Positions 1-17,300 of a stretch of 23,276 nucleotides of DNA are shown here, piece after piece (position 1 is the stretch's first letter; each line of letters starts with the position of its first letter). The translations under genes and the position numbers were made by a program. The stretch lies in IMG/VR virus record IMGVR_UViG_3300037171_000080, positions 1 through 23,276 of that record. The stretch is one strand, 5' to 3'. A model generated the notes under the pieces. It did not search any database. It was not told where the DNA came from and worked only from the letters and a program-made list of their open reading frames with translations. This DNA is from a virus.

Positions 1-2289
1 GGTAAGCGTCGTCGTGCCTGTTCCGGCGTTCCGGCCTGCGTTGTACCCCAAGGCCACGTTGGATGTGCAGGCAGCCCCCGATGTGCCGCAGTTGTACAGC
101 GCCAGGTAGCCGCTGGCCGTGTTGTAGGTCCCGGTGGTGTTGGAATACAGCGCCCCGTAGCCGCTGGCCGTGTTGGAGGCCCCGGTGGTGTTGAAATACA
201 GCGCCTCGAAGCCGCTGGCCGTGTTGTAGCTCCCGGTGGTGTTGGATAACAGCGCCAGGTAGCCGCTGGCCGTGTTGAAGGTCCCGGTGGTGTTGGATAA
301 CAGCGCCTCGAAGCCGCTGGCCGTGTTGAAGGTCCCGGTGGTGTTGGAATACAGCGCCTCGAAGCCGCTGGCCGTGTTGTAGCTCCCGGTGGTGTTGGAT
401 AACAGCGCCTCGTAGCCGCTGGCCGTGTTGAAGGTCCCGGTGGTGTTGGAATACAGCGCCTCGAAGCCGCTGGCCGTGTTATTGGACCCGGTGGTTATGT
501 AAGTGCCGCCTCCGCCCAAGAAATAGTTATGCAAACTTGCCAAGGTCTGTGTGCTCACGCTGCTGGCCGCGCCGGTGCTGTCTTTTGCGGTATAGGCAAA
601 CGTGGAAATCGGCGTGATGGCTTTCGCGCTGATATTGATTGTGCCAACGAAAGCCGCTGTGGGCGTGTATGTCAGCGATGTTCCGTTAGCTTTCGGACCC
701 CAGATAAAAGTAGATGACGCCGCATTGGTCGATGTACCGGACTGCTGGGCGGCACCAGCCGAGCCAATCGCCACGGTGATCGTGCCGCCGCCGATGGTGG
801 AGGTCATGGCGAGCGTGCCCGAACAGGACGCCGATCCAGTTGGCGTGCCCAGAGTTCCGGTCGTTGGCGTCGAGGTAAAAGCGGTACCCGCCGTAAGCAC
901 GGCGATGGCCGCCGTAACCGCGCCGCTCGTGACCGTGATCGTTCCGGTCGCCCCCGATCCACCGCCCCCGGTGACAGTCAGAGGATACGTGCCCGTGCCG
1001 GTGCAACTTAGGCCGCTGCCGTAGGTCATGCCGGTCACGCCCGCGTTATTCGTGATCCCCGTGACGGTCTGGTAATAGGCGTTATTGGTAAAGCCGGTGC
1101 ATGTCAGCGCCGCCGTCGTGGCGGGCGCGACGTAATTCGGATACGTGCCGGTCCAGCCGGTACCCGAGCATGTGCCGCTGGTCGTGACTTCCGATCCCAA
1201 CGTAGCCGTATCGGTGGCTGCCGTGCCGGTGACGATCTCACCCGCAGCGGTGACTGTACTGAGCGCATTCACCGCCCCCGCCGCGCTCACCGTGAACGCA
1301 TTGCTCGTGCCGACAATGAGTGAGTCCGCACCGATAGCATAGGGGTTAGTGATCGTGACGTGCGTCCCCGCCACGGGAGCCTTCACGTATTCCGAAATGT
1401 AGTTGGTGTACGTGACTCCGGTGTTGGTTGCCGCAATACTATTGCCGCCCAACACGTAAGTATAGCCAGTGGCTACAGTACCGGACCCCGCCGTGGATGT
1501 ATCGGTCAGCGTGCCCGGAACACCTATGATGCGCAGCCCGTTTGTGGCCCACGCCGCCGCCGAGATATTACCACTGATAATGATCGGCGAGGCGTTGAAC
1601 GTCACCGCGCCATTGTGGGTCGTGGTGCCAGTCACGCCCAGCGCATCGGAGCCGATGGTTGCGCCACCGAGGGCCGCGCTTGTTGCCAGCAGATTGCCAC
1701 TATCGTCAATCGTGTAGGTGCTTAGCCCCTTGATATGCGTGGCGTCGGTAAATATCGCGCCCTGGTGAATTAAGGGCGTGCCACTGTTGGACACGTTTCC
1801 ATACGATAGTGCCGGAATATCCGCCGCCACGAGCGCTCGCAGCCCCACCGCGCCCGCCGATCCGTTGGGCGTGGCGAGCACCTGATTCTGGGTGAGCGCG
1901 CTGGTGGGCGTCAACTGGAGCACGGGCGTGACCGAACCGCTGCCACCGAAGCTGCATGTCAGCCAGCTCACCGCAAAGCTGGAATTGCAGGCTACAGACG
2001 TAACGGTGCCGCCGCCTGCGCCGGTTGCGGCGGCCCAGTCTCCGGGCACGGCGCAGCGGTTGCCCGTGACGGTGCCATAGCAGACGTAGGCCGTGGCTGT
2101 GCTGGCGCGGTAGCACTGCGTGCCGAGTTGCGCCAGCGGCATCGTGCCTGGCGCGCTCGGGCACGCGCAGGGCGTGGGCACGGCTGCCGATCCCACCACC
2201 GTCTGCTGGCAGGACGGCGCAGTGTTGATGGGCTGGGCAGAGAGCGCTGCGGCCAGCACAGCAACCAGAAAAAGCAAGCGTTTCGTCAT
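1..2289 (-). CDS. Long secreted tail-fibre/adhesin-like protein, C-terminus beyond the window
   Basis: The frame is open for 763 codons from the ATG at 2289 to the left edge, with no stop seen. The start is set by AAGGAG a few bases upstream and an ATGA overlap with the preceding gene. Residues 1-19 (MTKRLLFLVAVLAAALSAQ) form a Sec signal peptide with probable cleavage after Ser-Ala. Residues ~20-130 are Cys-containing and fibre-like. At about residue 160 the segment VGLRALVAADIPAL is a motif often seen in phage tail fibres. The middle is low-complexity Thr/Gly/Ala-rich beta sequence. Residues ~596-731 are eight 17-aa repeats of the type NTASGFEALYSNTTGTF, like the left-handed beta-roll repeats of YadA-type heads and of fibres bearing endosialidase chaperones. 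The protein then continues (VALGYNAGRNAG) off the window. By inference it is a trimeric surface or receptor-binding fibre. An intramolecular chaperone might follow outside the window. The signal peptide is odd for a virion protein. Confidence 0.8.
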   Translation of the reverse strand, partial: MTKRLLFLVAVLAAALSAQPINTAPSCQQTVVGSAAVPTPCACPSAPGTMPLAQLGTQCYRASTATAYVCYGTVTGNRCAVPGDWAAATGAGGGTVTSVACNSSFAVSWLTCSFGGSGSVTPVLQLTPTSALTQNQVLATPNGSAGAVGLRALVAADIPALSYGNVSNSGTPLIHQGAIFTDATHIKGLSTYTIDDSGNLLATSAALGGATIGSDALGVTGTTTHNGAVTFNASPIIISGNISAAAWATNGLRIIGVPGTLTDTSTAGSGTVATGYTYVLGGNSIAATNTGVTYTNYISEYVKAPVAGTHVTITNPYAIGADSLIVGTSNAFTVSAAGAVNALSTVTAAGEIVTGTAATDTATLGSEVTTSGTCSGTGWTGTYPNYVAPATTAALTCTGFTNNAYYQTVTGITNNAGVTGMTYGSGLSCTGTGTYPLTVTGGGGSGATGTITVTSGAVTAAIAVLTAGTAFTSTPTTGTLGTPTGSASCSGTLAMTSTIGGGTITVAIGSAGAAQQSGTSTNAASSTFIWGPKANGTSLTYTPTAAFVGTINISAKAITPISTFAYTAKDSTGAASSVSTQTLASLHNYFLGGGGTYITTGSNNTASGFEALYSNTTGTFNTASGYEALLSNTTGSYNTASGFEALYSNTTGTFNTASGFEALLSNTTGTFNTASGYLALLSNTTGSYNTASGFEALYFNTTGASNTASGYGALYSNTTGTYNTASGYLALYNCGTSGAACTSNVALGYNAGRNAGTGTTTLT
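97..504 (-). repeat. Eight 51-bp in-frame tandem repeats (17-aa units)
   Basis: Eight copies of a 51-bp unit begin at 97, 148, 199, 250, 301, 352, 403 and 454, with exact periodicity and near identity. The outer units (97 and 454) are the most diverged. On the minus strand each unit encodes N-T-A-S-G-[FY]-[ELG]-A-L-[YL]-[SF]-N-T-T-G-[TSA]-[FYS]. Variation is confined to a few codons and the backbone is constant, as expected for a beta-roll solenoid that expands and contracts by unequal recombination or slippage. It is coding sequence, not a CRISPR array. Confidence 0.9.
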
Positions 2290-2561
2290 TTCGACTCCTT
2301 CTTCAGTTTACATTGCGGTTCGCCGTCCTGGCCGGCGACTACATCCGCATCAGTGCCGCACGCCTTTTGGAGTTCGGTTTGCGCGGATTCGAGCGCGGTC
2401 TTGGCGGCCTGGGCGCGGGCCTGCGCGGCGGCCCACTCGGCGGATGCCCGCCAGAACTTCGCCCGCACTTCGGCGGTGATCTGAGGAGCCTTCGGCGGCT
2501 CCGGTTTGGGCGTCTCGGCGGCGAGCGGCGCGAGCGCCAGAATCAAGAATATGTATCGCAT
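2286..2561 (-). CDS. Small secreted coiled-coil protein, function unknown
   Basis: A 91-aa protein. GAGGAG lies just upstream of the ATG at 2561, and the stop overlaps the start of the next gene (ATGA), so translation is probably coupled. Residues 1-15 (MRYIFLILALAPLAA) look like a Sec signal peptide cleaved before Glu-Thr-Pro. A Pro/Lys-rich linker follows. Residues ~30-70 are an Ala/Glu/Gln/Lys-rich helix likely to form a coiled coil, and two Cys lie near the charged C-terminus. I do not recognise the family. Its place between two long fibre-like genes, all three with signal peptides, suggests it is a periplasmic partner, chaperone or stabiliser of those fibres. A spanin-like role is possible, but there is no lipobox. 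Confidence 0.75.
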   Translation of the reverse strand: MRYIFLILALAPLAAETPKPEPPKAPQITAEVRAKFWRASAEWAAAQARAQAAKTALESAQTELQKACGTDADVVAGQDGEPQCKLKKESK

Positions 2562-2573
2562 GGGTTCTCCTCT

Positions 2574-5126
2574 TTAGTGCATTCCGCACTCGTAAGTCAG
2601 TTGTAAGTTAGTGAACGTCGCGAGAGACTCCAGCGTGGCGGTTGTCTGGGAATAGGGGGGGTATTGTGCGACGTACTGGGCGGGTGCGTTCACCGCGTCG
2701 ATGTGACAAACCCAATCCGTAGGCGCGAACTGGGTAAATGTTATAGTCGTGTACAAAATGCTCGCCGCGCTAGTCGATGTCAACAGAAAGTGCCCAACTG
2801 CATCGCTTCCCGAAAAAGAGGACACCGAACAACTTCCACTGCAAGATATCGAGGGAGTTCCGGTGGCGATGAAATCCAGGGCCGATACGATGTCGGAGAA
2901 TTGCACTCCGCCATCCGTCCCGCCGCCGTTCCAGAAAATCTTCAGCGTATTAGTTGGCGAAGTGCCAGAGGATAACTGCGCCTCCATTAGCCACTGCGAT
3001 GCAATCGCGAAGCTTCCATTCCAGTATGAGCCGTCCAATCCCAGGATCGGCGACAGATTCCCGCTGATGCTCGTGGCTGTTCCGGTCTTAACGAAGACCT
3101 GCTCGCCAAGGGTATCTATCCCCGTCGCCAGCAGGTTGCCGCTCGGGGCAACGGTAAAGATGGCCGCGGCGGATGAGTTTTCAATGTGGAGCACGTCTGC
3201 GCTCTGTGAACTAACAGCCTCCACTGTCAGCGTGGGCGTACCTGTCGATGTTGCAACAAAGTCCACGATGCCGCTCAGGTTCAGCGTGCTTGTACTGTTG
3301 TTCCACGCACCGAAGCCACCGAAGGCGCTTCCGGTATTGTACTGGATGCTGCCGGTCGAACCTCCGGGAGTTCCACCTCCTCCTCCCCCGCCGCACGCAC
3401 CGCCGCTACCGCTAAGCAGGCCCGACGAATTTACCTGCACGCATTGCGTGCTTCCGGTGATTCCAGAGACCGTCAAGTTAAGGACAGACGCCGTGTGAGA
3501 AGTTGAGTTGTAAGTGAAATATCCGTCTCCGTAGAACGCCCCTGTGTTATTGATTTGCACATCGGAATTAGACCCACCCGGCGGGGTTGTTCCGCATCCG
3601 GTGCAACCAGGGACAGTCAGATGGCCTACGTTATCGAAAAATGCCACGACAGTACTGCCGCTCCCGGTCTCAATGTCAAGTAAGTTCGCGGTCTGCCCGG
3701 TCGCTCCTATAACGGTCAAAGGAACCGTCGAAGTGCTCCCGGCCCATGCTTGCAACTGCGTGTTGACGGCCAGGAATGGACCGTTGAAGTAGGTCGCGCC
3801 AGTGTTCGTCATGTTGAGGTATTGCGGGCCACCCGAGTACTGATAGATCTCGAACAGGTCTGCGGATTGTGAACTGCCGAATCCGAACACCTGTAGGGAC
3901 TTTCCCGAGTTGCTTACGGCTGTCGCGGTAAGTCCTCCAAGCGCAGCCGTCAGGCCGGCCGCCGTAACCTTGAGGTCGAGCGGCGCGCCACCATAGCCCA
4001 ATACCTGAAGCAGATCGCCAGACTGGCTGCTGCTGTGACCTTTGACCGTGAGCCCTAATCCCGTGTCCGTGGTGGGCTGAAACGTTGCCGCCGGCGCCAC
4101 GAGTTGCCATCCTTGGCCGCCGACATTCAGGTTTAGGTCCATCACGATGACCGCGCTGCTGTCCAGGAAATCCAACTCGTTTACGGTCGGGGCGCCGATC
4201 TCCATATTAAGCGACGTGCTGCTGGTCGGATCGAATTGCAGGTAAGCGCCGTTTGTAATTGCTACGTGAGGGGACACGTAGAGGAGATTCGTTGCGCCCG
4301 CAAAACTGCCTGAGTTGTTGTACTGAAATGATAGTGTTGGGCTGCCGGGTGAACCGCCTCCGCAGCCGGTGCAACCAGGGACAGTCAGATGGCCGACGTT
4401 ATCGAAGAACGCAAGAATCGGGCCTCCATTCTCGATGTTCATCAGATTGGCTGTCTGTCCGCTGGCTCCATTGATGATGAAGGGCACTGTCGAGGAACTT
4501 CCAGCCCATGCCTGGAGTTGCGTGTTCACCGCCAGAAATGGGCCGTTGAAGTAGGTCGATCCATTGGCGGCCATGTTCAAGTATTGTGAACCGCCGGAAT
4601 ACTGATAGATGTCCAGTAGGTCCGCAGACTGCCCACTGCCATACCCAAAAATCTGCATGGACTTTCCAGAATTGCTGACTGCCGTCGCGGTCAATCCGCC
4701 GAGCGCCGCGGTGAGGCCGTTTGACTCAACGCGCAAGTCGAGCGGACCACCAGCGTACCCCAATACCTGAAGCAGATCTGCTGACTGCGTGATGGAATGC
4801 CCGTTGACTATGAGGGGATGCCCCGTATCGGTGGTGGATGTGAACGTTGCTGCTGGTCCGACAAACTGCCACCCTTGCCCTCCAACACTCAGGAACAGTT
4901 GCAAGTCTGTGACGGAACTGCTGTCGATGAAGCTCAGTGTGTTGGTAGCCGTCTCTTTCAACGTGAAGGCCGGCGTAAACGTGCTCGTGTCGTTGAACAC
5001 GAGAATCCCCGGCGATCCACTTGACGGGTTGATGTCGAGTTGATGGTAGCCACCTGTCTGGGCATTCAAGAAACCCGTGCCCGCCATTGCGAGAATTGCT
5101 ATTCCGTATCTCATAAGTTTGCTCAT
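2574..5126 (-). CDS. Repeat-rich tail-fibre-like protein with signal peptide
   Basis: An 850-aa protein. I choose the ATG at 5126 because it overlaps the stop of the hub gene as ATGA and is followed at once by a signal peptide (MSKLMRYGIAILAMAGTGF, then LNA-Q). The longer frame to 5267 would run inside the hub gene. No clear Shine-Dalgarno is visible. Seven motifs of the form GQ[ST]A[DN]LL.I followed by a beta-strand resemble repeats common in phage fibres. Residues ~60-255 and ~320-511 are two copies of one block at an offset of 256 residues. Residues ~560-590 are glycine-rich. The last ~100 residues begin with GSDAVGHFLLTS, a typical fibre C-terminal beta-sandwich start. It is probably a beta-helical trimeric fibre or receptor-binding protein. 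The signal peptide suggests an exported form. The family call rests on repeats and position. Confidence 0.8.
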   Translation of the reverse strand: MSKLMRYGIAILAMAGTGFLNAQTGGYHQLDINPSSGSPGILVFNDTSTFTPAFTLKETATNTLSFIDSSSVTDLQLFLSVGGQGWQFVGPAATFTSTTDTGHPLIVNGHSITQSADLLQVLGYAGGPLDLRVESNGLTAALGGLTATAVSNSGKSMQIFGYGSGQSADLLDIYQYSGGSQYLNMAANGSTYFNGPFLAVNTQLQAWAGSSSTVPFIINGASGQTANLMNIENGGPILAFFDNVGHLTVPGCTGCGGGSPGSPTLSFQYNNSGSFAGATNLLYVSPHVAITNGAYLQFDPTSSTSLNMEIGAPTVNELDFLDSSAVIVMDLNLNVGGQGWQLVAPAATFQPTTDTGLGLTVKGHSSSQSGDLLQVLGYGGAPLDLKVTAAGLTAALGGLTATAVSNSGKSLQVFGFGSSQSADLFEIYQYSGGPQYLNMTNTGATYFNGPFLAVNTQLQAWAGSTSTVPLTVIGATGQTANLLDIETGSGSTVVAFFDNVGHLTVPGCTGCGTTPPGGSNSDVQINNTGAFYGDGYFTYNSTSHTASVLNLTVSGITGSTQCVQVNSSGLLSGSGGACGGGGGGGTPGGSTGSIQYNTGSAFGGFGAWNNSTSTLNLSGIVDFVATSTGTPTLTVEAVSSQSADVLHIENSSAAAIFTVAPSGNLLATGIDTLGEQVFVKTGTATSISGNLSPILGLDGSYWNGSFAIASQWLMEAQLSSGTSPTNTLKIFWNGGGTDGGVQFSDIVSALDFIATGTPSISCSGSCSVSSFSGSDAVGHFLLTSTSAASILYTTITFTQFAPTDWVCHIDAVNAPAQYVAQYPPYSQTTATLESLATFTNLQLTYECGMH
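3595..4950 (-). repeat. Internal duplication within the fibre gene (offset 768 bp)
   Basis: Two diverged copies lie at about 4360-4950 and 3595-4190 and share long near-identical runs. For example, GTGCAACCAGGGACAGTCAG occurs at 3601 and again at 4369, giving an offset of 768 bp (256 codons). Both copies encode the same order: VGGQGWQ, a TTDTG...GHS block, DLLQVLGY, LTAALGGLTATAVSNSGKS, QYLNM, FNGPFLAVNTQLQAWAGS, and VGHLTVPGCTG. This is an in-frame modular duplication that lengthened the fibre. Confidence 0.85.
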
Positions 5127-7855
5127 AAGTTTGAGTTTGCGGTCAGGCATCGCCAGATTCCCGGCGTGTCGGTTTGGACGAACAAGTAGGCCGTTTCCGC
5201 GTAAGGAAGCGGGCTTGGTTGCGGAGGACCGATAGCCGGTGAACCCGTCGAGTAGCTTGAGTCCCACGTTATTGCGTGGCCGCCAACGTGATCCTGAATG
5301 ATCGTGAGCCAGAATGGATCGCCCCCCGTGGCCGTGGGGGGATGTAGGATGGCGTTCATCGTCACGTTCGCCGAGATAGTGTACTCTTGCGCCGTGCCGT
5401 TCGCATAATCAGGCAGAACGTGGCCAGCGATGGTTATGGTGATAGTGAAGTACCCGTAAGTTGCCCCGGATGGAGCCGCCCCCGTCGTTTGCAGCGCGGC
5501 GACTGCCGCCGGTGCGCTGGCACCCGACGTAAAGAACTTGACAGCCGTCTTCCAGTCTCCAATGATGGCCCCGAATACGCAGGTCAGAGACCAAAGCTGC
5601 AAGCGATTCAAATCCGTCAGGCGGGCGGATTGCACCACGAACGTGGCACCCGCGACTCGGTTCAAACTTACGACAATCGACATGCCCGGCGCGATGCCAG
5701 TTCGGTAGGTGTCCACCGCGAGTTCCTGGGAAAGCACCGAGAACAGATTGGAAAGCGTCTGGGCCACTTCCAGCCCGACCGCCTGCGCCGGCGGCCCCTG
5801 CACGAGAGGCAGCGTGTTTGCCAGGTCCAGGTAGGTGTCGTACTCGCCCGAGCCGCCCTCGGCCAATTGGCGCACGCCGATGGCAACCTGGTCTAGGTAC
5901 TGCGCGTAGGAGGACGAAGACGGCTGGTAAACCACCAGGAGGAATTGGCTGCTCATGATCGCTGCTTGCCCGGCATCCTGCTTTAGTTCGTTGCTGCCCG
6001 GCGACCAGTAGAAATCGAAACCGGATTTCCCGACTTCCCCGACCGTCATCGCCAGCGCCATGGCGGTCACGCAGTAGCCGTGCGCTCCCGTGCCTGTGCC
6101 GCCCGTGCATGTGAATGGGTCAATATCGTTGTAGCCTGTGCCGGGATTGCCGAGGTTCCAGGACAGGATCGAGTGTACATTCGGGTCCGCAAAAATGAGC
6201 ACCGTGGCGTTGTTCCCGCTGCCGGGCTGGTGGAGTGTCAGCAGGTCGCCATCGGTGTACCCGGTCCCTGTCCCAGCGAACGCCTGCAAAAAGGTGATGA
6301 CGCCCGAGGGCAGCGGGTTCGGCGCGATGCCGTCGTATCGCGTCACGGTCGGGGCCGCCGCCACCGGATACGGCAACTGGAAAGACTGAGTGCTGTTGTC
6401 GCCTTGGCAGTACACCGAGACCTGATTGGAAAGCTGCGAGAGGTCAAGCCACGTCGCGTTGAAGTACTTCTCGCGCGTGACTGAGCAAGAAACCTTCATC
6501 AGCACGTTGCCATCGCTGGCGTCGAGTTCGCTGATATTCCATGGGGCCGGGTTGCTCACGCCCTGGATGGCGAAGTTGAAGCCTTTGCGTGGGTCCAGGT
6601 AGTACCAATACGCACCAGCCGCCCCGGAGATGTACTGGCAAAGCGAAGCCAGCGCCGCGTCGATGCTCTGGCTGGCGGTGAACTGGATGGCCTGAATCCC
6701 AACCGCTGGAGTCACGTTTGCCAAGTCCACCGTGATGCCTTCGGATGCCGCGATCAGGTTGATGAGGTTGACGGCGATGGCGTCTGCGTTGACTCCGGTA
6801 TAGTTCAGGCTCGGGATGATATTGCTGCCGCCACTCGCCGCAGTGCCGTTCACAGTGAACACGAAGACATCCGTGGGGTTTATCACCAGCGACGGGTCGA
6901 TCCCAATCGAGGGGTTATCCGCCGGAGACCAATAGAAATCGTACCCACCCGCGCCCCAGGGCGGCTGAATGTTGTACGGGCCGTAGGCCACAGCCGTACC
7001 GTTCACCGTGATGAGCACGATGTTCGTGGGCGCCGGGTAGATCGAGAACCAGCGCGTGTGGAACACGGTCGGCGCCGTGCCGGGCGGGGAGCCGGGCGGC
7101 AGATATTGCGAAATGCCGCTCTGTACGCCCATGGGGTTCGTCACGGCGTCGTAGGGAGCGCCGTTGAACGTGAGATACTGTTGCCCCGCCTGGTACTCGG
7201 GCGAGGTCTGGAAGGTCGGGCAGAGCACAATCAGGCGGCGTGCGCAGATCGCCTCCCAGGCTACGCACTGGACCTCTATCTCAGTGCGGCCCGTGCCAGG
7301 GTAGTTCGTCACCTTAGCCTGTTCTATACTGCCCCCAAAAATGTCGCCCACCTGGCCGCCAAAGGGCGCGGTTGCGAGGCTGGAATCTGTTAACAGAACC
7401 GGATTCCCTACCAGAGACGTGGGTATTCCGAACACTCCGATACTTTCGGTGACGTAGTTGTATTTGATTGTGAAGTCGAGTGTCCCCCGCGTCGTGAGCG
7501 AACGCTCAAATACGATGCTGTCTTGCAGTACGGCGTTGTCCGTGCCGAAGTGGGCTTCATCGAGCGGACGATAGATCGTGACTTGCGCGCCGGCCGCAAT
7601 CGCAGTGCTTGCCGCCGTCGCCATCGTGCAGATGCCGGCACTTGCTACGGTGGCGATGGTGGTCCACAGCGGAGCGCCAGACGGCCCAGCGCCGAGCACT
7701 TGAACCTGATCGCCCACGTCCGCGGACGCCAATCCGTAGAACCCGTGTCCCAATCCGAGATAAAGGTTCACCCCACTCACCGCCGCATTTACATTCACGC
7801 CTCCAAGCCAGATCGTCAGGCTGGCCGCGGAGTCGGGCGTGGGCTTGAAACTCAT
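5123..7855 (-). CDS. Tail hub / baseplate-like minor tail protein
   Basis: A 910-aa protein beginning four bases after the tape measure stop, with only a weak ribosome site. Placement directly after the tape measure gene is where siphophages keep distal-tail and hub proteins. Residues ~115-145 (FERSLTTRGTLDFTI) and ~170-208 (GDIFGGSIEQ... EIEVQCVAWEAICARRL) match the usual hub pattern of a strand pair followed by a 'C.DW...A.RR' element. Residues ~375-425 include a stretch ending WYYLDPRKGFNFA, also typical of hub proteins (gp27/gpJ-like). The C-terminus (residues ~800-905), with TIIQDHVGGHAITWDSSY and YLFVQTD..GIWRCL, matches a small beta-sandwich often found on tail fibres, so the gene looks like a hub fused to a fibre-type module. 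It probably forms the tail tip and contacts the host. No signal peptide is present. Confidence 0.75.
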   Translation of the reverse strand: MSFKPTPDSAASLTIWLGGVNVNAAVSGVNLYLGLGHGFYGLASADVGDQVQVLGAGPSGAPLWTTIATVASAGICTMATAASTAIAAGAQVTIYRPLDEAHFGTDNAVLQDSIVFERSLTTRGTLDFTIKYNYVTESIGVFGIPTSLVGNPVLLTDSSLATAPFGGQVGDIFGGSIEQAKVTNYPGTGRTEIEVQCVAWEAICARRLIVLCPTFQTSPEYQAGQQYLTFNGAPYDAVTNPMGVQSGISQYLPPGSPPGTAPTVFHTRWFSIYPAPTNIVLITVNGTAVAYGPYNIQPPWGAGGYDFYWSPADNPSIGIDPSLVINPTDVFVFTVNGTAASGGSNIIPSLNYTGVNADAIAVNLINLIAASEGITVDLANVTPAVGIQAIQFTASQSIDAALASLCQYISGAAGAYWYYLDPRKGFNFAIQGVSNPAPWNISELDASDGNVLMKVSCSVTREKYFNATWLDLSQLSNQVSVYCQGDNSTQSFQLPYPVAAAPTVTRYDGIAPNPLPSGVITFLQAFAGTGTGYTDGDLLTLHQPGSGNNATVLIFADPNVHSILSWNLGNPGTGYNDIDPFTCTGGTGTGAHGYCVTAMALAMTVGEVGKSGFDFYWSPGSNELKQDAGQAAIMSSQFLLVVYQPSSSSYAQYLDQVAIGVRQLAEGGSGEYDTYLDLANTLPLVQGPPAQAVGLEVAQTLSNLFSVLSQELAVDTYRTGIAPGMSIVVSLNRVAGATFVVQSARLTDLNRLQLWSLTCVFGAIIGDWKTAVKFFTSGASAPAAVAALQTTGAAPSGATYGYFTITITIAGHVLPDYANGTAQEYTISANVTMNAILHPPTATGGDPFWLTIIQDHVGGHAITWDSSYSTGSPAIGPPQPSPLPYAETAYLFVQTDTPGIWRCLTANSNL

Positions 7856-7859
7856 GCGT

Positions 7860-10004
7860 CTACCATTTGGCCCCGCTGCGGCGTGACATCTTTACCGCTT
7901 TGTCCATGACGTTCGATACGAGGTCTTGTGTCACGCCGGTGAAGCTGCTGCCCCTGAAGTCAAAATGCGTCCCCACGCTCGCATTGTGCTCGTAGTTGGC
8001 GGTGCTGTAGCGGTTGGACACGTTCTCGGATCGCGGCACGACGGCCTCTCCTTCATGGAGCATCGCTAGGCCGGTGCGTGGTACCCAGTCCGTGCCCTCT
8101 GCAAAGAATGGCACGATGGATAGCGCCCCTTCGATGAGATCGCTGCCAAGACCGCCGTCGCCCCCTCCGCCACCAGCTCCGCCCCCCTTGAACAATCCGC
8201 TCAGAATGCCGCTCAGCGCGGATGTAAGCATATTCTCCAACGGAGCCAGCAGCGCATGGAGGAATATCTGAAGCGCGTCGGTAGCAAGTTGGGAAAATAT
8301 GCTTTTGACGGTTGTCGCCCATCCCTTCCAATGAACGATATCGTTTGCGAGACTACTCTCGATGGTGCCGAACATGCGCGGGATCTCCTGGAACGCCGCG
8401 CCCGCGAGATTCTTGGAGAAGTCCCGGCTTTCGACTGCCGCTTTGGCCAGCGCCGCTCCATAGTTTCGCCAGCCTTCAGCGAGATCCGCCGCCGATCCCA
8501 CGCGCTTGATAATCTCAAGGCTTGAGGCCATCTTTGCCAATTCTTCATCAGCCACATGGAGATGGAGATCGGCGAAGGCCTTGGGAAGATTCATCAGGTC
8601 GTTTACCGTCTGGTACATAGCCGGCGATAGACGATCCTTGAGCGCTATTATTTCGGTGGTCTTGGCGACGGCTTTCTGACCGCCTTCGACGTATTTGTCC
8701 CACGCCTTGTCCATGACCCCTTGCTCGCGCGTTTTCTCATCCGCAACGCCTTGCTGCGCTTTTTGGAGTTCAAGTAGAATTTTGGTGGTTTCCGCCGCCT
8801 CCTGATCGAGACGCTTGTAGAAGGCTTCCCATCCTTTTGCCGCGCGCTCGCCCTGCTGGTTGGAGTCTGTTTGAGTCCCTACTTGGCCCTTGAGGTCTAC
8901 GTTCTTCGCCGCATCTTTTACCTGAACGAGTTGGTTCTGAAGGTATTTGAGCAGATCCAGAAGCGATTTTATCTCTTTGGTAATTGTGGGTGTCTCTGGT
9001 TCTGCGTAAAGCTTATTCAGGGACCCACGCACTTCGACTATCTCGTCATTTATAAGCGCAAGCTGGTGGGGCAAGTCGGAAAACCCGCCCTCCGTGATGT
9101 TGATGCTCTTTAGTTTCTCCTGCAAGTCACTAATGCCATCCGTTAGTGTCTGGATGATCTCTGTAGCCCCATGCGTGTTCGCCCCTGGGCCGCCTCCAAG
9201 GATCTCGGGGTCTAACAAGTTCCGCAACAAAGCCGCCCATGTGCTGCCCTTGCCTTTTTCTAAGTGCTGCTGTATTTGGTCGAAAGCCTTGTCCAAGTCC
9301 AACGCCATCTTCGCGCCCGCAGCAGCGGTCTCCAGGAGCGCAACCTTTAGCTTGTTCTCTGGTTCGCCGCGTAGCTTGGCGAGTTGGTTTTCCAGTTGGG
9401 CATTGGAAACCTCCATTGAAGCATTGGTGACTTGCAGCGATTCGTTAAACTCGCGCCAGTAAAGTTCTGAATCAACGAGCGCGTCCTTTTGCGCCTTCGC
9501 CCATTTGACGATGCCCTCAATGGCATTGGCGATCATCTCGGGGAGCATGACCACCATAAAAAGACTACGGAACAGCCGGAGTTCCGAAACCATGCCGCGG
9601 AAAGATCCGGTTGCCCGTTCGGCCATTCCGCCGAAGTTCTCGCCCGCCATCGCTGCGTTCTGGCCGGTAGCGTCAAGCGCGGAACTGAACTCCTCAAAAT
9701 CCAGGCTGGCGTTTCGTGCTGCCGCTCCAGCCGCCCGGATGGATTCGGCCAGACGCTCGGCAGCAGCAGTGCCTACGGCCCCCATTCTTTCGGATACGGC
9801 TGTCAAGTTCGATACGGCTTCGGCTGCTGTACCGGAGACTCCCTCGATTTCGGATAACGATTGCGCGATGGCTTCTGCCATCGTTTTGCCGCCCTCAACG
9901 TACCTCGCTACTGCTGCCTGAAAGGCCTGGTCAGCTTGGGAGAAGTCTCCAGTGACGGTAATCTTCACGCCACCGATGGACTCGCCGCCTGGTTCGTCAG
10001 GCAT
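7860..10004 (-). CDS. Tail tape measure protein
   Basis: A 714-aa protein that sets tail length and probably helps DNA cross the membrane. The start codon shares one base with the stop of the GT frame (TGATG), and GAGAGGAG lies about nine bases upstream. The first ~130 residues are Ala-rich helix (SQADQAFQAAVARYVEGG...). A hydrophobic segment follows at ~145-168 (FRSLFMVVMLPEMIANAIEG), then long charged helices, a second helical hydrophobic region at ~575-605 and a Gly-rich linker (GGGAGGGGGDGG). Residues ~634-658 contain GTDWVPRTGLAMLHEGE, the hallmark C-terminal element of many tape measure proteins. The length is modest, implying a short-to-medium tail. Position after the tail chaperones and before the hub agrees fully with the call. 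Confidence 0.93.
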   Translation of the reverse strand: MPDEPGGESIGGVKITVTGDFSQADQAFQAAVARYVEGGKTMAEAIAQSLSEIEGVSGTAAEAVSNLTAVSERMGAVGTAAAERLAESIRAAGAAARNASLDFEEFSSALDATGQNAAMAGENFGGMAERATGSFRGMVSELRLFRSLFMVVMLPEMIANAIEGIVKWAKAQKDALVDSELYWREFNESLQVTNASMEVSNAQLENQLAKLRGEPENKLKVALLETAAAGAKMALDLDKAFDQIQQHLEKGKGSTWAALLRNLLDPEILGGGPGANTHGATEIIQTLTDGISDLQEKLKSINITEGGFSDLPHQLALINDEIVEVRGSLNKLYAEPETPTITKEIKSLLDLLKYLQNQLVQVKDAAKNVDLKGQVGTQTDSNQQGERAAKGWEAFYKRLDQEAAETTKILLELQKAQQGVADEKTREQGVMDKAWDKYVEGGQKAVAKTTEIIALKDRLSPAMYQTVNDLMNLPKAFADLHLHVADEELAKMASSLEIIKRVGSAADLAEGWRNYGAALAKAAVESRDFSKNLAGAAFQEIPRMFGTIESSLANDIVHWKGWATTVKSIFSQLATDALQIFLHALLAPLENMLTSALSGILSGLFKGGGAGGGGGDGGLGSDLIEGALSIVPFFAEGTDWVPRTGLAMLHEGEAVVPRSENVSNRYSTANYEHNASVGTHFDFRGSSFTGVTQDLVSNVMDKAVKMSRRSGAKW

Positions 10005-10824: not shown

Positions 10825-10843
10825 GGCGTAATAGTACCACCAA

Positions 10844-11416
10844 TCAGGAAAGCACCGGCATCCCGGTGAGCGTGATGGTGACTTCCGCCTGTTCCACACC
10901 GGCCACAGCGGCTTTCTTCGAGAACTTGGAAACGAAGCCCTGGAAATAGTCTGTAGTCTGGGCAGTGTTGGGATACTGGATAGCGAACGGGACCGGGTTT
11001 CCGGGCGTGGTCAGTCCGCGGCTGGTGAACAATGCCTCCAAGCCGCCCGTGTTGCCGTGCGGGTAGGGCGGCCCGCCGGCGCCGGCCGGAGTGATCGGTC
11101 CCTCCGAGTCCGGAATGTAGTACAACGGAAGCGTGAAATCGCCGGCATCCAGCAGGGTGCAGAGCTTTTCCCGCCAAGGGTTCCCGGTGGAGTGGCTGGT
11201 TACGTCCACCACAGTGGCGCTCATGGACGGCCCGGAAAGGTCGCCCACGTTGGCGATGGGAGCGTAAATCTCGGGCGAAGCTCCGTTACCGATCATCAGG
11301 TACGTATTGATGGCGGGCAGGCCAATCGGGAAAGTCGCCTTAGTGTAGGTGGTGCCAGCAACCAGCGCAAAGGCTGCAAGCGCCATCAGGATGTTGTAAA
11401 TCAGGTGAAGGTGCAT
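10844..11416 (-). CDS. Major tail tube protein with an N-terminal hydrophobic leader
   Basis: A 190-aa protein that forms the tail tube. The conserved core includes LMIGNGASPEIYAPIANVGD, then LSGPS and VDVTSHSTGNPWREKL, the standard tail tube pattern, followed by a beta-rich domain and a C-terminal part with TDYFQGFVSKFSKK and an immunoglobulin-like strand ending ITLTGMPVLS. AAAGGAG lies eight bases before the ATG at 11416 and fixes that start. The protein therefore begins MHLHLIYNILMALAAFALVA, a hydrophobic segment that ends in an Ala-x-Ala-like site before the core starts near residue 24. Typical tail tube proteins have no such leader. It lacks Lys/Arg in the n-region, so it is a weaker signal peptide than those of the fibre genes. 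Function is confident; the meaning of the leader is not. Confidence 0.85.
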   Translation of the reverse strand: MHLHLIYNILMALAAFALVAGTTYTKATFPIGLPAINTYLMIGNGASPEIYAPIANVGDLSGPSMSATVVDVTSHSTGNPWREKLCTLLDAGDFTLPLYYIPDSEGPITPAGAGGPPYPHGNTGGLEALFTSRGLTTPGNPVPFAIQYPNTAQTTDYFQGFVSKFSKKAAVAGVEQAEVTITLTGMPVLS

Positions 11417-11430
11417 CGTCTTTTCTCCTT

Positions 11431-12149: not shown

Positions 12150-12154
12150 TGCGC

Positions 12155-12589: not shown

Positions 12590-12599
12590 GCAATCTCCC

Positions 12600-12779
12600 T
12601 TACGACGCGGGCGGCGTCGGCGGCGTAGCAGCCTTCTTGCCCCAGATGGCGAGTACCTCGCTGATGAAATTGTCCACCGCCGGGGCCGTGTTAGTGGTGG
12701 GGTTGGAGAATGCCTGCAATGCGTCTTCCAGGGCGAAAAGCCCCGTCGCCAGAATCTTTCCAAGTGTGCTGTTTACCAT
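12600..12779 (-). CDS. 59-residue hypothetical protein
   Basis: AAGGAG sits seven bases before the ATG at 12779, the frame ends at TAA 12602-12600, and the next gene's AGGGAGA follows immediately. The product runs MVNSTLGKILATGLFALEDA, then a Pro/Asn-rich stretch, a helix FISEVLAIWGKKA and a Pro-Thr tail. The two amphipathic helices and a Pro-rich end resemble many small phage proteins of unknown role. No transmembrane segment is convincing. Perfect packing between neighbours and a strong ribosome site argue that it is real despite its size. Confidence 0.7.
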   Translation of the reverse strand: MVNSTLGKILATGLFALEDALQAFSNPTTNTAPAVDNFISEVLAIWGKKAATPPTPPAS

Positions 12780-12794
12780 CGTATTGCTCCTTAT

Positions 12795-13181: not shown

Positions 13182-13182
13182 C

Positions 13183-13413
13183 TCACCGTTTCTTCCCTTT
13201 CGCCCGGATTGCCTTGGCCGCGAATGCCGCGAAGAAATGCAGATCGCACTCCATGGCACACAACTCGCGTGTGCCAGCTATCGCCGCTTCCACGGCTTTC
13301 TCTCGCTCGGCGGAGCCAGCGTCGTGCTCTGAATGCACGGCGATGGAAATGCGCCGGTTCACTTCGGCTTCGGTGATACTGCCCGGTTCGGGCCAATTCT
13401 CGCGTCTTGGCAT
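13183..13413 (-). CDS. Small hypothetical protein
   Basis: A 76-aa protein. AAAGGAG, overlapping the connector's TAA stop, lies eight bases before the ATG at 13413, and the TGA stop is one base from the next start. It is Ala/Glu/Arg-rich and mostly helical (EAEVNRRISIAVHSEHDAGS), with a basic end (AIRAKGKKR). A cluster GTRELCAMECDLHFFAAFAA is the only distinctive part. No family recognised. Tight packing between the connector and the coiled-coil membrane protein shows that it belongs to the operon. Confidence 0.7.
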   Translation of the reverse strand: MPRRENWPEPGSITEAEVNRRISIAVHSEHDAGSAEREKAVEAAIAGTRELCAMECDLHFFAAFAAKAIRAKGKKR

Positions 13414-13423
13414 TACGTCTCCT

Positions 13424-13921
13424 TTACGGTCCGAGTAACCGATTCCAAACCTTCCAGGTCCTCTCCCTGGCTGAGAACGAATCCTGCACCATCTCCGCGA
13501 TGGCGAACGCCCCGGAATTGTCGCTCTGTTCCCGGTACGCTTCCGCCTGCGCGTGAAGCGCCTGCTGCACGTCCTTGGCGCTCAGCTTCACATCCAACAT
13601 GCCGGAGATCACGGCGAGCCGCGCCTTGCTCGAAGCCAGCACGTCCAGAGCCTGCGCAGCCGCGCGCAGATAGTCGTATTGATTGCCGCCCAGGCCGACG
13701 TTCGCGCCGGTAGGGTCAGACTGCGAGCTGGTGTAGATCCCCATCTGGCCCGTTAGCGTCAGGTAGAAGCTGATTTCGTCGTCGTTGAAAATCGGGTGCG
13801 TAACGTCGCAGTCGGGAATAAGCGCGCGCACCGCAGTGACCGCGTAATTCGCGTTGAAATCGTAGGTGAAGCCGCCCGGAATGTTTGGCGTGTCCACCGG
13901 GTACTGTGGAAGGCTGCTCAT
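13424..13921 (-). CDS. Head-tail connector / adaptor protein (gp6-like)
   Basis: A 165-aa protein. The ATG at 13921 overlaps the preceding stop as ATGA. Residues ~25-55 carry VTAVRALIPDCDVTHPIFND followed by DEISFYL, the usual start of HK97 gp6-type adaptors ('VR.LIPD....FSDDEI..FL'). A helix then follows (LRAAAQALDVLASSKARLAV), with an amphipathic stretch KLSAKDVQQALHAQAEAYRE typical of the 'A..LRA.A..YR' element in these proteins. It would form the ring beneath the portal. Finding it several genes after the capsid gene, behind two exported proteins, is unusual spacing. Confidence 0.78.
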   Translation of the reverse strand: MSSLPQYPVDTPNIPGGFTYDFNANYAVTAVRALIPDCDVTHPIFNDDEISFYLTLTGQMGIYTSSQSDPTGANVGLGGNQYDYLRAAAQALDVLASSKARLAVISGMLDVKLSAKDVQQALHAQAEAYREQSDNSGAFAIAEMVQDSFSARERTWKVWNRLLGP

Positions 13922-15504
13922 TGCGTCACCACCAGTCCACCAGATGCGGTCACGCCGCCCTGGAAGATATCGCCGGGGCCGACGTTCAGCAAATTTGTCC
14001 AGCTCAGCGCCGTATCGTTTGGAGCCAGCGAGCCCATGGCGGTGGGCGTACCTGTCCCGCTATTGCAGTTGTCGGCCTGCTGGTTCGCGGTCGTATAGTA
14101 TAGCGGAGTCGTGAAAAACCTGGAGACGAACTGGCCGCCGTTCGCCGACACCCAGCCGACGAATGCGCTATTCCACAACTGCTGAAGTTCCAGCCAAACC
14201 ACGTCGATGCACCCGAGATACCTGTTAGGCTCGGACGGGCGCTCCGTGGACGGGGGGGCGAGATTCGTAGAGTTATACGGTGCCCATCCGGGCAGATCGG
14301 TCTGCGTGATCCCCCATGGCACCGTTACCGTGTTGTTTGGGCTGGCTCCGGCGCGCGTGTTGGCGATGAACCCGGTACAGTACGCGGAGGTGCAGGTTCC
14401 CTCGATAGACTGCAGTTCTTCGGAGTAGGCCAAGTTCGATTGGTCCGATGTGCCGTTGAAGGCGTCCCATCCAACGAAATCCAGGTAGGTATGCGTGGCA
14501 CTCTGCGTGGTCTGCGGGCAGTTCCCAGCGACTGCAGGGGTTCCCACCGGGATGATGCTGGCGTTCACCACACCGATCCAGTCCCAGGCAAAACATATGT
14601 CCGAGTTGGACGGCGAGATGTTCGCCGCGACCGGATAGCTTGGCCCGGTGAAGGCCGCGCCGATCTTGACTGACGGAACCACGGCTTTGATGGCCGTCGA
14701 GAAATCCTTGATGACCTGCGCTGCGTAGGCGACAGTCAGCGTACTCGGTGGAATCTGCGTCTGCATCGCTGCCAGCGGCTCGATGAGAACCTGAAAGGAG
14801 GAGATCGCGGCCCCGTAGCGGTCGAACATCGCCAGCGTGGGGGGCAGCACGCACGCCTCGTATTGGGCCTCTGTCAGCGGATACGGGAGATTTAACGTCG
14901 GGTAGCACGAGTTGAGCATGTCCGTCACAACCCCAGGTATTCCAGAGCGCCAGTTCACGCCGTGCGCCACATACCCGTTCACCATCGAATCCAGGATACT
15001 CAGCATCTTGCAGTGCGGCCCGCTTCCGGCCGGCGCGGCAGTCGCCGGACTCGTGAACGCGAGCGTGCCGCCACGCGCGCAGTCGGAAACCGCCATGCAG
15101 CCGCGGCTGCCACACGTTGTGGAAGCAAAGAAAGCCGCGATATCCACGAATGTATCGTGCGTGGTCATTCCACTGGCGAGCATCTGAGCCGAGAACGTCC
15201 CGTTGGCGCAGGGCGCGCCGAATGCCGCCAGGCTGGCGCTCAGAAAAGGGCCGAGGCACGGGATATCCTGCCCGGTGAGCATGATCTTAGGCTGTGGGTG
15301 AGCTGCATCCCGCGCCTTGATGTCTTGGAAGCTCGCGCACTCGTCGGCGTAGAAGTTGGCGAGCTGGTACTGCGCCGCGGGCAGATTGTAGCACTTGCTG
15401 CCAGGCTGGCAGACAGACGCGCACCCTGATTGGTTCGCGCAGTTGCATTGCGCCATGGCCGCCAGAGGCAAGAACGTGAGGAGGGCGAGCACCTTTACTG
15501 GCAT
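13918..15504 (-). CDS. Secreted cysteine-rich protein, possibly glycoside-hydrolase-like
   Basis: A 528-aa protein. GAGGGTGG precedes the ATG at 15504, which overlaps the previous stop by ten bases. Residues 1-19 (MPVKVLALLTFLPLAAMAQ) are a clear Sec signal peptide cleaved after Ala-Met-Ala. The mature N-terminus is Cys-rich (QCNCANQSGCASVCQPGSKC), and I count 20 Cys overall, which suits an oxidising compartment. Strand-like FQVLIEPLAAMQ (Glu-242) and YLDFVGWDAFN (Asp-342) with alternating helices (YAAQVIKDFSTAIKAV) suggest a TIM-barrel, and 'IEP' at a strand end recalls the acid/base Glu of clan GH-A. No family is certain. It could be a polysaccharide-degrading enzyme acting on the host envelope or biofilm. 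The C-terminal ~60 residues are Gly/Thr-rich. It ends in an ATGA overlap with the connector gene. Confidence 0.72.
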   Translation of the reverse strand: MPVKVLALLTFLPLAAMAQCNCANQSGCASVCQPGSKCYNLPAAQYQLANFYADECASFQDIKARDAAHPQPKIMLTGQDIPCLGPFLSASLAAFGAPCANGTFSAQMLASGMTTHDTFVDIAAFFASTTCGSRGCMAVSDCARGGTLAFTSPATAAPAGSGPHCKMLSILDSMVNGYVAHGVNWRSGIPGVVTDMLNSCYPTLNLPYPLTEAQYEACVLPPTLAMFDRYGAAISSFQVLIEPLAAMQTQIPPSTLTVAYAAQVIKDFSTAIKAVVPSVKIGAAFTGPSYPVAANISPSNSDICFAWDWIGVVNASIIPVGTPAVAGNCPQTTQSATHTYLDFVGWDAFNGTSDQSNLAYSEELQSIEGTCTSAYCTGFIANTRAGASPNNTVTVPWGITQTDLPGWAPYNSTNLAPPSTERPSEPNRYLGCIDVVWLELQQLWNSAFVGWVSANGGQFVSRFFTTPLYYTTANQQADNCNSGTGTPTAMGSLAPNDTALSWTNLLNVGPGDIFQGGVTASGGLVVTQ

Positions 15505-17300
15505 TGGAATGCCACCCTCAAGTTGGCCGTCGTATCGGTCGCGTTCGATGTGCTGGTCTCAACCCCTACGTAGAAGGTGTCGCCACTCGAAAAGGTTACG
15601 GAATCGGCTCCGTCGCTGCAAGTCGTGCCGGTTCCCAGCGTACAAGTTAGGGCGCTCTGCGCACCGTTGTGGTAGAGGGTGACTACTCCGCTGCTGGCGT
15701 CCTGCCCGGCTGCGGAGCTCTTGGCGATCAAGGCGAACGCCGTGCACGGCCCACTGATCGGCATCCCGAGCGCCGTCGTGCCGGTACAATCCGGCAAGCC
15801 GTCATCCTGGCTACCGGGGAATAGGTAGTATTCGGTGCTGAGAGATGCGCCCACTGCGCCGTTGCACCAGCTCTCGTAATTCGGAGCGTCCAGAGAAGTG
15901 GGAGTCCATATTCCTCTCGCCAGTCGCAATCCCTGCCCTGTAGTCGGGGCGGTTGCGGAGATGCTTACACCGCGGATGCCAACGACCGACGCCGCCACCG
16001 TTCCAGCCGCGTTCGTCATGTCTCCGGTGAATGCGGGCATCTGCGCAGCCGCGAGTACTCCGGCGATTTGCGGCAGGGTGCAAAGTAACCAAGCGCTGCT
16101 GCCTGTATTCCAGCAATAGACGTCTCCCGCAGTCGTGGGGGCTGTAGGGGTAACCGCATTATGCTGGATGGCTCCGACTGTCATCACGGTACCAGGCACA
16201 CCTGCCACGACGTTGCTCGCGTCTCCAGTGAACCCGAGGCTGTACAACTGGTTCCCGCCATTCAGCCCGAGAGGAGCCCCAGCCACCAGCGCCGCGCCTG
16301 GAGTATAGATCGTCTGGCTGTATCCGGTCGTCGGCCCGCTGATGACAAACTGTGTCGTGTGCGTGGAGTCGTAGAACTTGATCGCTCCCTCGGCCGTGCC
16401 GGACAGTCCGAGCGTGCCGCCAACCGTCACATTGCCGCCAACCGTCAGTAGGTTCAAATTTCCAGGGATCGTGCCGCTGTCAAGACACGTTGGGGAAATG
16501 TAGGAGGTGCAGTCAACCGCCGCCGTGCCGTTGATTTCGTTAGCAGAAATCGCGCCGCCTCCGGTGGGCGCCAGCGTGCCGGACACCAGCAGCGCGTTTC
16601 CGTTCGTACCGCTCCCCACTCCGCTAAAGTTGACGGACCCGCCGGTGCCTCCCGTATCTCCGCAACTCCATGTGTGGGTGGCCGCCGTATAGTTGAGGTG
16701 GAGTCCCGAATCCGGGCAGTCCGGGATGGGCGATATCTGCCCGGTCCCCACGGTCCCTCCGATCTGGTACACGGCATCGGTGACCGTGTCGGCCGGAAAC
16801 GTAGTGCCGTTGATCGTCGCGGCATCAATCGTGCAGCCGGCTGGGGTCAGGTAGTCGGTACAGGGCGTGGCTACCCGAGCCGTGTTGAATCCGGTCGCAT
16901 AGGGAATGCCGGGGCCAGGGTAAGGAATATAGGCCGTGCCGAGTGGCGGGTAGGTCTGCGGCTGGCAATAGGTCGAGAGCCGGGCCGGGCTGGATGCCCC
17001 GATCTGGCAGACTTCCTCGAAACTCGCCCCATTGTACGTGGTGAATAGCAGCACGTACTGGGTTCCGGCGGGGCTTACCACGAGAGACACATTCAGCGCG
17101 CCGCCCGTGATGCTCACCGTCTGGTTCCACGCCGCGATGGTGTTCGCGCTGATATCCACGCTCACCGCCCCGGAAATCTTGAGCGTGCCGTTGAACGGCG
17201 CTCCGGACACCGGCGTGTAAATGGTGTCGGAGATGGTCGTGTACTGCGGCTGCGCCACCAGCGCCAGCGGCATGAGAACGGTAATAATCGCCAGTTTCAT
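15495..17300 (-). CDS. Secreted tail-fibre-like protein
   Basis: A 601-aa protein from the ATG at 17300. The longer frame to 17366 would read through the terminator hairpin, and only the shorter start puts a signal peptide (MKLAIITVLMPLALVAQ) at the N-terminus. No Shine-Dalgarno is visible. Residues ~22-110 (DTIYTPVSGAPFNGTLKISG ... EEVCQIG) are a fibre N-terminal beta domain of a type seen in many phage fibres ('G.PFNGTL.I'). The middle is Thr/Gly/Ala-rich with TVGGNVTVGGTLGLSGTAEG. Residues ~485-601 form a C-terminal beta-sandwich (DSVTFSSGDTFYVGVETSTS...) with paired Cys. It is probably a fibre or adhesin. Export is implied by the leader. It lies directly after the capsid gene and its terminator, ahead of the Cys-rich protein. 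Confidence 0.78.
   Translation of the reverse strand: MKLAIITVLMPLALVAQPQYTTISDTIYTPVSGAPFNGTLKISGAVSVDISANTIAAWNQTVSITGGALNVSLVVSPAGTQYVLLFTTYNGASFEEVCQIGASSPARLSTYCQPQTYPPLGTAYIPYPGPGIPYATGFNTARVATPCTDYLTPAGCTIDAATINGTTFPADTVTDAVYQIGGTVGTGQISPIPDCPDSGLHLNYTAATHTWSCGDTGGTGGSVNFSGVGSGTNGNALLVSGTLAPTGGGAISANEINGTAAVDCTSYISPTCLDSGTIPGNLNLLTVGGNVTVGGTLGLSGTAEGAIKFYDSTHTTQFVISGPTTGYSQTIYTPGAALVAGAPLGLNGGNQLYSLGFTGDASNVVAGVPGTVMTVGAIQHNAVTPTAPTTAGDVYCWNTGSSAWLLCTLPQIAGVLAAAQMPAFTGDMTNAAGTVAASVVGIRGVSISATAPTTGQGLRLARGIWTPTSLDAPNYESWCNGAVGASLSTEYYLFPGSQDDGLPDCTGTTALGMPISGPCTAFALIAKSSAAGQDASSGVVTLYHNGAQSALTCTLGTGTTCSDGADSVTFSSGDTFYVGVETSTSNATDTTANLRVAFQCQ

Follow-up and report, generated by a model that had tools for sequence, protein, structure and literature searches.

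Predicted Sec leaders on fibre-type proteins encoded in a phage structural operon

The leader-bearing genes and their setting

The stretch of DNA analyzed here, referred to as the window, is a 23,276-base IMG/VR virus record (IMGVR_UViG_3300037171_000080) which carries a phage structural operon, and five genes in it, all on the minus strand, encode products that begin with leaders of the kind handled by the Sec pathway and signal peptidase I (SPase I): three fibre-like proteins (fibA, fibB and fibC), a cysteine-rich protein and a short coiled-coil protein. Export of these five proteins through Sec is judged very probable, the support being the leader itself, glutamine at the first mature position (+1), paired cysteines and the persistence of the leader in homologues, all of which are sequence statistics. 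The structural genes, several of which are named by position alone, are arranged along the minus strand as connector-type, protease, decoration-like, capsid, fibC, cysteine-rich, neck and tail genes, then tube, tape measure, tail tip, fibB, the short coiled-coil gene and fibA (Table 1). The fibC and cysteine-rich genes thus lie between capsid and neck, not beside the tail genes, and the fibB gene overlaps the tail-tip gene inside the operon. Adjacent genes are joined by ATGA overlaps at 2286-2289, 5123-5126 and 13918-13921 and by a 10-base overlap at 15495-15504, with a 12-base gap between 2561 and 2574, and late expression of the five leader-bearing genes is implied by the gene order. The strong hairpin which separates the capsid gene from fibC may make the genes distal to the capsid dependent on read-through; it has the longest stem among the terminator-like patterns, of which 8 were seen against 4.7 expected in the 6.5 kb scanned.

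Each of the five leaders combines a positively charged n-region, a hydrophobic core and an A-x-A-type site, with four A/Q junctions and one A/E (the stroke marks the predicted cut), as an earlier note on this DNA had described; the coordinates, the cysteine count of 20 in the product of 13918-15504 and the ATGA overlaps given there proved correct when the sequence was re-read. The N-termini are MTKRLLFLVAVLAAALSA/Q in fibA, MRYIFLILALAPLAA/E in the short protein, MSKLMRYGIAILAMAGTGFLNA/Q in fibB, MPVKVLALLTFLPLAAMA/Q in the cysteine-rich protein and MKLAIITVLMPLALVA/Q in fibC. Ribosome sites precede the genes at 1-2289 (AAGGAG), 2286-2561 (AGGAG) and 13918-15504 (GAGG); none was scored for 2574-5126, which has the ATGA overlap, or for 15495-17300, and the upstream starts that are possible for these two genes, at 5150 and 17357 respectively, would lengthen the n-region and keep the leader. 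Lipoprotein (SPase II) leaders were considered and rejected for the five proteins, whose +1 residues are Q, E, Q, Q and Q, with no lipobox cysteine.

The leader rule used for systematic detection, which ignores the +1 residue except that proline is excluded, is passed by 5 of the 20 window proteins, these being the same five, and failed by all of the other 15. It was drawn up after the five proteins had been viewed, and the fair tests of it are relatives and controls. Among listed coding sequences of control genomes the rule is passed by 6/58 in lambda, 2/50 in Mu and 2/43 in T7, the positives including lambda lom, bor, Rz, Rz1 and rexB, Mu endolysin and spanin, and the spanin and gene 4.2 of T7; lambda Z is the one virion protein to pass, and no listed fibre of lambda, Mu or T7 does. 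In the phage loci collected for comparison (numbered with the prefix L), 8/183 minus-strand open reading frames (ORFs) pass against 44/346 on the plus strand, or 10/109 against 45/364 with a looser ORF caller, and some of the minus-strand positives resemble real genes. One of these, at 3071-4426 on the minus strand of L030, a phage of the major capsid protein (MCP) family, has a clear A/Q leader and a mature start, 'QYTPPN', like fibres elsewhere. Because controls and minus-strand ORFs also pass, a lone rule-positive ORF is little proof, and the case therefore leans on homologues, +1 glutamine and cysteine parity.

Table 1. Features of the window, with coordinates in the 23,276-base record
Feature	Coordinates	Strand	Remarks
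fibA	1..2289	-	fibre-like; Sec leader, A/Q; 'TSGTCSGTGWTGTYPNYVAP' beta domain; NTASG...NTTG repeats; 14 Cys; cut by contig end at 1
Short coiled-coil protein	2286..2561	-	leader, A/E; Lys/Pro linker; coiled coil by eye; 2 Cys
fibB	2574..5126	-	fibre-like; Sec leader, A/Q; 10 Cys; ATGA overlap with tail-tip gene
Tail-tip-like structural protein	5123..7855	-	no leader; named by position; relatives in L006 and L008 records; no match in Pfam and PHROG scans
Tape-measure-like protein	7860..10004	-	no leader at start; an internal start satisfies the leader rule; named by position and size
Tail tube	10844..11416	-	no leader by rule; Pfam PF16461, E 6.6e-7; PHROG 158
Neck/head-completion-like gene	13424..13921	-	ATGA overlap with cysteine-rich gene; named by position
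Cysteine-rich protein	13918..15504	-	leader, A/Q; 20 Cys
fibC	15495..17300	-	fibre-like; Sec leader, A/Q; 16 Cys
Intrinsic-terminator-like hairpin	17316..17350	-	14 pairs, T tail; between capsid gene and fibC
Major capsid protein	17377..18858	-	no leader; phage genes matched by tblastn carry mostly the annotation major capsid protein

Persistence and composition of the leaders

The first comparison is that of fibA, whose repeats match PHROG 23837, 6002 and 4636 (virion structural and tail spike families) and whose domain was found by scanning in 15 loci, with the 5' end of the gene present in 14. The earlier note had named homologues starting downstream of the leaders as an observation that would refute it, and none was seen here: a leader is present in every one of the 14 complete homologues, recognised by rule in 12 and by eye in L066 and L070, and all 14 starts are preceded by a ribosome-site match of 3 bases or more; with the near-copies L061/L065 and L063/L064 counted once, 12 of the 14 are distinct. 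The leaders differ in sequence while the n-h-c pattern is constant, and the N-terminal parts of the proteins are mostly dissimilar, being alike in L058/L060, L069/L070 and window/L058. Two cysteines are invariant in the 12-sequence alignment of the domain, and an AlphaFold model built from 12 sequences is mostly beta, at modest confidence (mean 58.5). Roseobacter phage tail proteins that match the fibA repeats alone carry no leader. A second leader-bearing gene lies nearby in 7 of the 10 mapped fibA-domain loci (L058, L065, L066, L068, L069, L070 and L071), and 26/81 ORFs of at least 150 aa pass the rule in 12 such loci, which were picked via a leader-bearing family. The phages concerned differ in type: L059, L067 and L071 have PHROG 156 portals, which we take to be of P22 type, and L066 has a baseplate hub and wedge, with the leader-bearing fibres coming after the wedge gene. 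Fibres with predicted leaders thus recur beyond this contig and across different phage types.

The other four proteins offer fewer comparisons. For fibB the single relative beyond the same phage (L121 5680-7437) has a leader, though the match spans only 38 residues, and PHROG, Pfam and collection searches returned only a weak match to a family of unknown function. The single homologue of the cysteine-rich protein, L018 7833-9209 (34% identity), also starts with a leader; it belongs to the L008 phage, where it is one of several overlapping genes with leaders that lie in a row 3' of the tail-tip genes. The cysteine-rich protein received no name from PHROG, Pfam or collection searches, comparison with the PDB by sequence gave no match, by eye the protein may be a TIM-barrel hydrolase, and an AlphaFold model from two sequences was unusable (mean pLDDT, the model's confidence score, 31). 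No phage relative and no Pfam or PHROG match was found for fibC. Among ten further proteins, two match PHROG tail families, one of them the leader-bearing L068 3825-5207, whose residues 43-121 match a virion/tail family; the remaining eight (seven leader-bearing, one leader-like) have no PHROG match.

The short protein of the window has just 21-28% identity to the other four, and small proteins of similar layout (79-100 aa) lie beside leader-bearing fibres at L055 10650-10922, L065 7006-7245, L066 7651-7953 and L069 7662-7925, each with a leader (by eye in L055) and a coiled-coil-like stretch, and most with a linker rich in Lys and Pro. These are candidate periplasmic fibre chaperones or spanin-like proteins; a spanin role was considered for the window's protein too, and Rz-type proteins also pass the rule.

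A second line of comparison concerns the site between capsid and neck. Capsid searches yielded 14 and then 24 loci, and 15 of them were examined for this space, the neck-like gene being 3' of the capsid gene in 15/15. In L004, which stands for the group near-identical to the window, the space holds fibC and the cysteine-rich gene; in L006 and L008 it holds a small leader-bearing protein, in L032 the same small domain without a leader, and in 11/15 loci it is too small for a gene (gaps of -35 to 88 bases). On this comparison fibC and the cysteine-rich gene are an insertion, two close relatives filling the same site with another leader-bearing gene. The small domain ('GTGA..RWIQ.IAP..YIANGD'), which in several phages is encoded between capsid and neck, carries a leader at L006 2305-2661, L008 11543-11947, L026 6483-6824, L053 7920-8258 (a locus from the small-domain search, not the capsid search) and L055 7923-8273, and none at L032 2538-2825 and L068 2477-2803; the leader has therefore been gained or lost within one phage protein family. 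In the L055 phage (the L029 record) a run of four genes lies 5' of the protease: the small domain, a fibA-like fibre and a further protein, all with leaders by rule, and then a short coiled-coil-like protein whose leader was recognised by eye. Leaders thus persist in relatives while sequence and gene position change.

Some of these loci have other features. Head-morphogenesis-type proteins at L004 3176-4432 and L008 5126-6379 have an N-terminal part which by eye is SixA histidine phosphatase-like ('LYLLRHAESEDGP') and a remainder matching PHROG portal/head morphogenesis families. N-terminal 'SDTNGG.F' motifs were seen by eye in the leaderless L034 2439-3803 and in L018 5345-6838, which is leader-like and fails the rule. 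The genes at L053 7321-7923 and 9345-10753 are by eye glycosyltransferase-like and alternate with genes of capsid type, of connector type and of the leader-bearing small domain.

The composition of the leader-bearing proteins was evaluated in 43 rule-positive ORFs from which near-copies had been removed. Glutamine occupies +1 in 20/43 and occurs 0-5 times at every other offset from -10 to +15, and the motif xx[AG]Q is present in 32/43 against 64/277 leaderless ORFs. After 5 truncated and 3 cysteine-free members are set aside, the mature cysteine count is even in 29/35 leader-bearing ORFs against 101/209 leaderless ORFs of the same loci (one-sided Fisher p 9e-5), in 24/27 against 72/148 at lengths of at least 150 aa, and in 24/26 against 65/105 among ORFs with at least 4 cysteines; median cysteine content is 1.97% in rule-positive and 1.18% in leaderless ORFs. 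Three of the six odd-count members are apparent false positives (L066_3970, L027_8698 and L068_2591), L065_5896 has an even count if an A/Q site further on is taken, and L065_7006 and L031_9146 remain odd. The even-count L010_13392, which lies within a tube gene, is also an apparent false positive, window_13651 is the internal tape-measure start, with no cysteine, and missed leaders in the leaderless set (L066_5097 and L070_5395) weaken the parity contrast. The 8/183 minus-strand positives, too few for a comparison and partly real genes, have glutamine at +1 in 1/8 and even cysteines in 7/7. Glutamine at +1 together with even cysteine counts fits cleaved, disulfide-bonded exported proteins, not docking helices, and leader, +1 glutamine and even cysteines offer a combined test for such fibres in metagenomes.

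Isolated Acidobacteriota phages and the probable host

Five phages of Tunturiibacter, a genus of the Acidobacteriota, were described in 2025 (PMC11924767, the main text of which contains neither 'signal peptide' nor 'mass spectrometry'), and runs of leader-bearing genes occur in three of them, Tunturi_1, Tunturi_2 and Tunturi_5. Leaders are found in Tunturi_1 on gp12, gp13, gp14 (tail spike), gp16 and gp17 (virion structural), whose mature cysteine counts are 20, 10, 20, 1 and 32, with gp15 merely leader-like by eye; the sole Tunturi_1 gene annotated tail fiber that lacks a leader is 124 aa long. The run is repeated in Tunturi_2, where gp13 bears the annotation tail fiber and gp14 pectin lyase. 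The jumbo myovirus Tunturi_5 has six consecutive leader-bearing genes, gp337-342, shortly after the major head protein gp334; their mature cysteine counts are 18, 6, 0, 0, 14 and 12, and the annotation is tail fiber for gp337, gp341 and gp342 and virion structural for gp338. Cysteines are even in 8/8 proteins of more than 200 aa in the Tunturi_1 and Tunturi_5 runs. A scan of the whole Tunturi_5 genome in 20-kb pieces (286 ORFs; genes cut by piece edges may escape) gave 12 rule-positives, four of them in gp337-342; gp339 and gp340 fall outside this listing and pass the rule on their annotated starts, and the eight positives elsewhere have 7, 4, 4, 0, 5, 2, 2 and 0 mature cysteines.

These isolates bear on the host, which the earlier note had guessed to be an acidobacterium. 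That guess gains from the shared leader feature in phages of the phylum and from an A/Q-biased Acidobacteriota plasmid. A genome scan with the MCP found no relative and no Acidobacteriota prophage, and one with the portal found 12 loci (Chloroflexota, Bacillota, Actinomycetes and others) and no Acidobacteriota prophage. In those 12 loci 7/144 plus-strand ORFs of at least 150 aa pass the rule, by eye mostly portal, tape-measure or other false positives; those that look real are L041 5021 (A/Q) and the lipoprotein-like L039 876. In 400 of the 476 kb of the Granulicella plasmid pACIX901 (L072-L091), glutamine is at +1 in 17/56 rule-positive ORFs against a 7% background. The phage leaders thus resemble Acidobacteriota leaders, and the plasmid bias suggests that the Q-rule, glutamine at +1 of SPase I substrates, extends beyond the Bacteroidetes. 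It has been described as Bacteroidetes-specific, with a few high cyanobacterial species in addition (PMC5837995, the main text of which does not contain 'Acidobacteri-'); glutamine at +1 is common to that system and the present one, but here it occurs in phages, among them three Acidobacteriota isolates, and in an Acidobacteriota plasmid.

Possible destinations of the predicted exported proteins and comparison with known systems

The core of the earlier note, that fibre-type proteins of a structural operon carry real Sec leaders, finds support well beyond the window; as possible destinations or roles the note listed surface adhesins or exclusion factors, secreted enzymes and assembly involving the membrane. 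In the mechanism favoured here the five proteins would form part of the fibre, spike and accessory set of some tailed phages of hosts that are very probably Acidobacteriota, a set which would be made from the structural region and routed through Sec. SPase I would cleave after A-x-A/G, mostly exposing glutamine, and the mature proteins would fold in the periplasm and form disulfides. Most fibres and spikes would meet finished particles at lysis and bind there, so that the particles would gain their receptor-binding parts outside the cytoplasm. Help with assembly in the periplasm is a possible role of the small coiled-coil proteins with leaders, and surface glycans may be the target of the cysteine-rich protein and of the spike annotated pectin lyase. 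The virion step is favoured because of the gene positions and the fibre and spike annotation in the isolates. Adding fibres to fibreless T4 particles in lysates is a classical procedure. The balance of probability is slightly in favour of the whole chain, from Sec export through periplasmic folding with disulfides to the joining of particles at lysis. Two-compartment assembly, in which Sec-exported fibres and spikes would be oxidised and capped by pyroglutamate in the periplasm, helped by small phage-coded periplasmic coiled-coil proteins and snapped onto virions at lysis, is put forward tentatively, with somewhat less than an even chance.

Several results weigh against this mechanism. No common virion-docking domain was found among the leader-bearing proteins, Foldseek with the fibA domain model returned nothing at E<=0.001 in the PDB or in viral models, and the mechanism offers no route for the exported proteins through the outer membrane. 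The place of the leader cassettes changes from phage to phage (capsid-neck, tail-tip or pre-protease), some of them lying apart from tail genes, and only 6/150 ORFs of at least 150 aa pass the rule in the 15 loci that belong to the MCP family but not to the window's group. The isolates are not uniform either: none of 27 structural-region coding sequences passes in Tunturi_3, including five annotated tail fiber, none of 22 passes in Tunturi_4, and in Tunturi_1 the 1307-aa gp31 ('virion structural') and gp36 ('lytic tail') are leaderless. From the leaderless Tunturi_3 fibres and the lack of leaders in the Tunturi_4 genes examined it follows that an Acidobacteriota host does not require export. 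The fibre and spike labels in these genomes are the depositors' predictions; in PHROG searches none of Tunturi_1 gp12-16 matches, although the end of gp17 matches a tail family, and of four Tunturi_5 proteins only gp342 does, to an unknown family. A search of Tunturi_1 and Tunturi_5 for the fibA domain found none, and the link from the window to the Tunturi phages is a 36-residue C-terminal match through L066.

The strongest competing explanation, unlikely on balance though with an appreciable share of the probability, is that the proteins, once exported, stay off the particles and work at the cell surface or in secreted form: as adhesins, as degraders of surface glycans, or by masking receptors, which would guard against superinfection or keep progeny from being wasted on debris. 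The leader, +1 glutamine and paired cysteines demand export alone, the set holds a cysteine-rich protein and a Tunturi_2 gene annotated pectin lyase, the position of the cassette varies, and exported phage factors exist, such as the rule-positive Lom and Bor of lambda; Llp of T5 is another. However, fibre or spike positions are occupied, after the tail tip here and after the baseplate wedge in L066, several isolate genes bear a tail fiber, tail spike or virion structural annotation, and three to six such proteins per phage (in the window, L058, L070, Tunturi_1 and Tunturi_5) are many for masking. Capture of host genes for secreted proteins, carried near the structural genes as passengers dispensable to the phage, would fit the relatives that lack the fibC and cysteine-rich pair between capsid and neck (11/15 having no room) and the small domain that occurs both with a leader (L006, L008, L026, L053 and L055) and without (L032 and L068), but it is very unlikely given that phages whose head and tail genes differ have the feature in common and that isolates carry five- to six-gene runs. 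Retention of the hydrophobic N-termini as virion-docking or membrane-anchor segments is about as improbable, for although spanin N-termini and the internal tape-measure start pass the same rule, a docking helix predicts neither glutamine exactly at +1 after A-x-A/G (20/43) nor even cysteines, and the leaders vary in sequence yet hold the n-h-c pattern.

Well-studied tailed phages assemble in the cytoplasm, and the annotation of genes and structures assumes as much. If phages of a major soil phylum do export their fibres, it would mean either an extracytoplasmic step in virion assembly or an envelope flooded with receptor-binding proteins, and either outcome would alter the understanding of host range, superinfection and lysis; a two-compartment route would have been reached by phages with differing heads and tails, with disulfide-hardened fibres for life in soil. 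Since isolates exist, the question of destination is answerable by a virion proteome.

Among the matches listed, no open-access report had Sec leaders on tail fibres as its subject, as judged by title or the start of the abstract. The nearest cases are the Porphyromonas gingivalis phages of the proposed family Nixviridae, in which five leader-bearing genes of unknown function follow the Q-rule (PMC10367356); as here, these are phage genes with predicted SPase I cleavage exposing glutamine, but they belong to phages of another host phylum and are not described as fibres in the portion of that report drawn on here. Two Bacteroides phages in a rumen study carry two leaders and one, not assigned to fibres in the corresponding portion of that source (PMC5723332).

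The streptococcal phage tail adhesins PblA and PblB are not known to have signal peptides and are released by lysis. They are likewise phage tail proteins, acting as bacterial surface adhesins, from which the window proteins differ by their Sec leaders, present in all five. The fibres J/Stf of lambda, S of Mu and gp17 of T7 resemble the window's in that the window genes also adjoin tail genes and the fibA repeats match PHROG virion and tail families, but the lambda, Mu and T7 fibres have no leader by the same rule, whereas the window fibres combine a Sec leader with paired cysteines. Lom and Bor of lambda are exported, as is predicted for the window proteins, and are likewise phage-encoded and rule-positive, but they are single small envelope genes, whereas here there are sets of large proteins of fibre and spike type.

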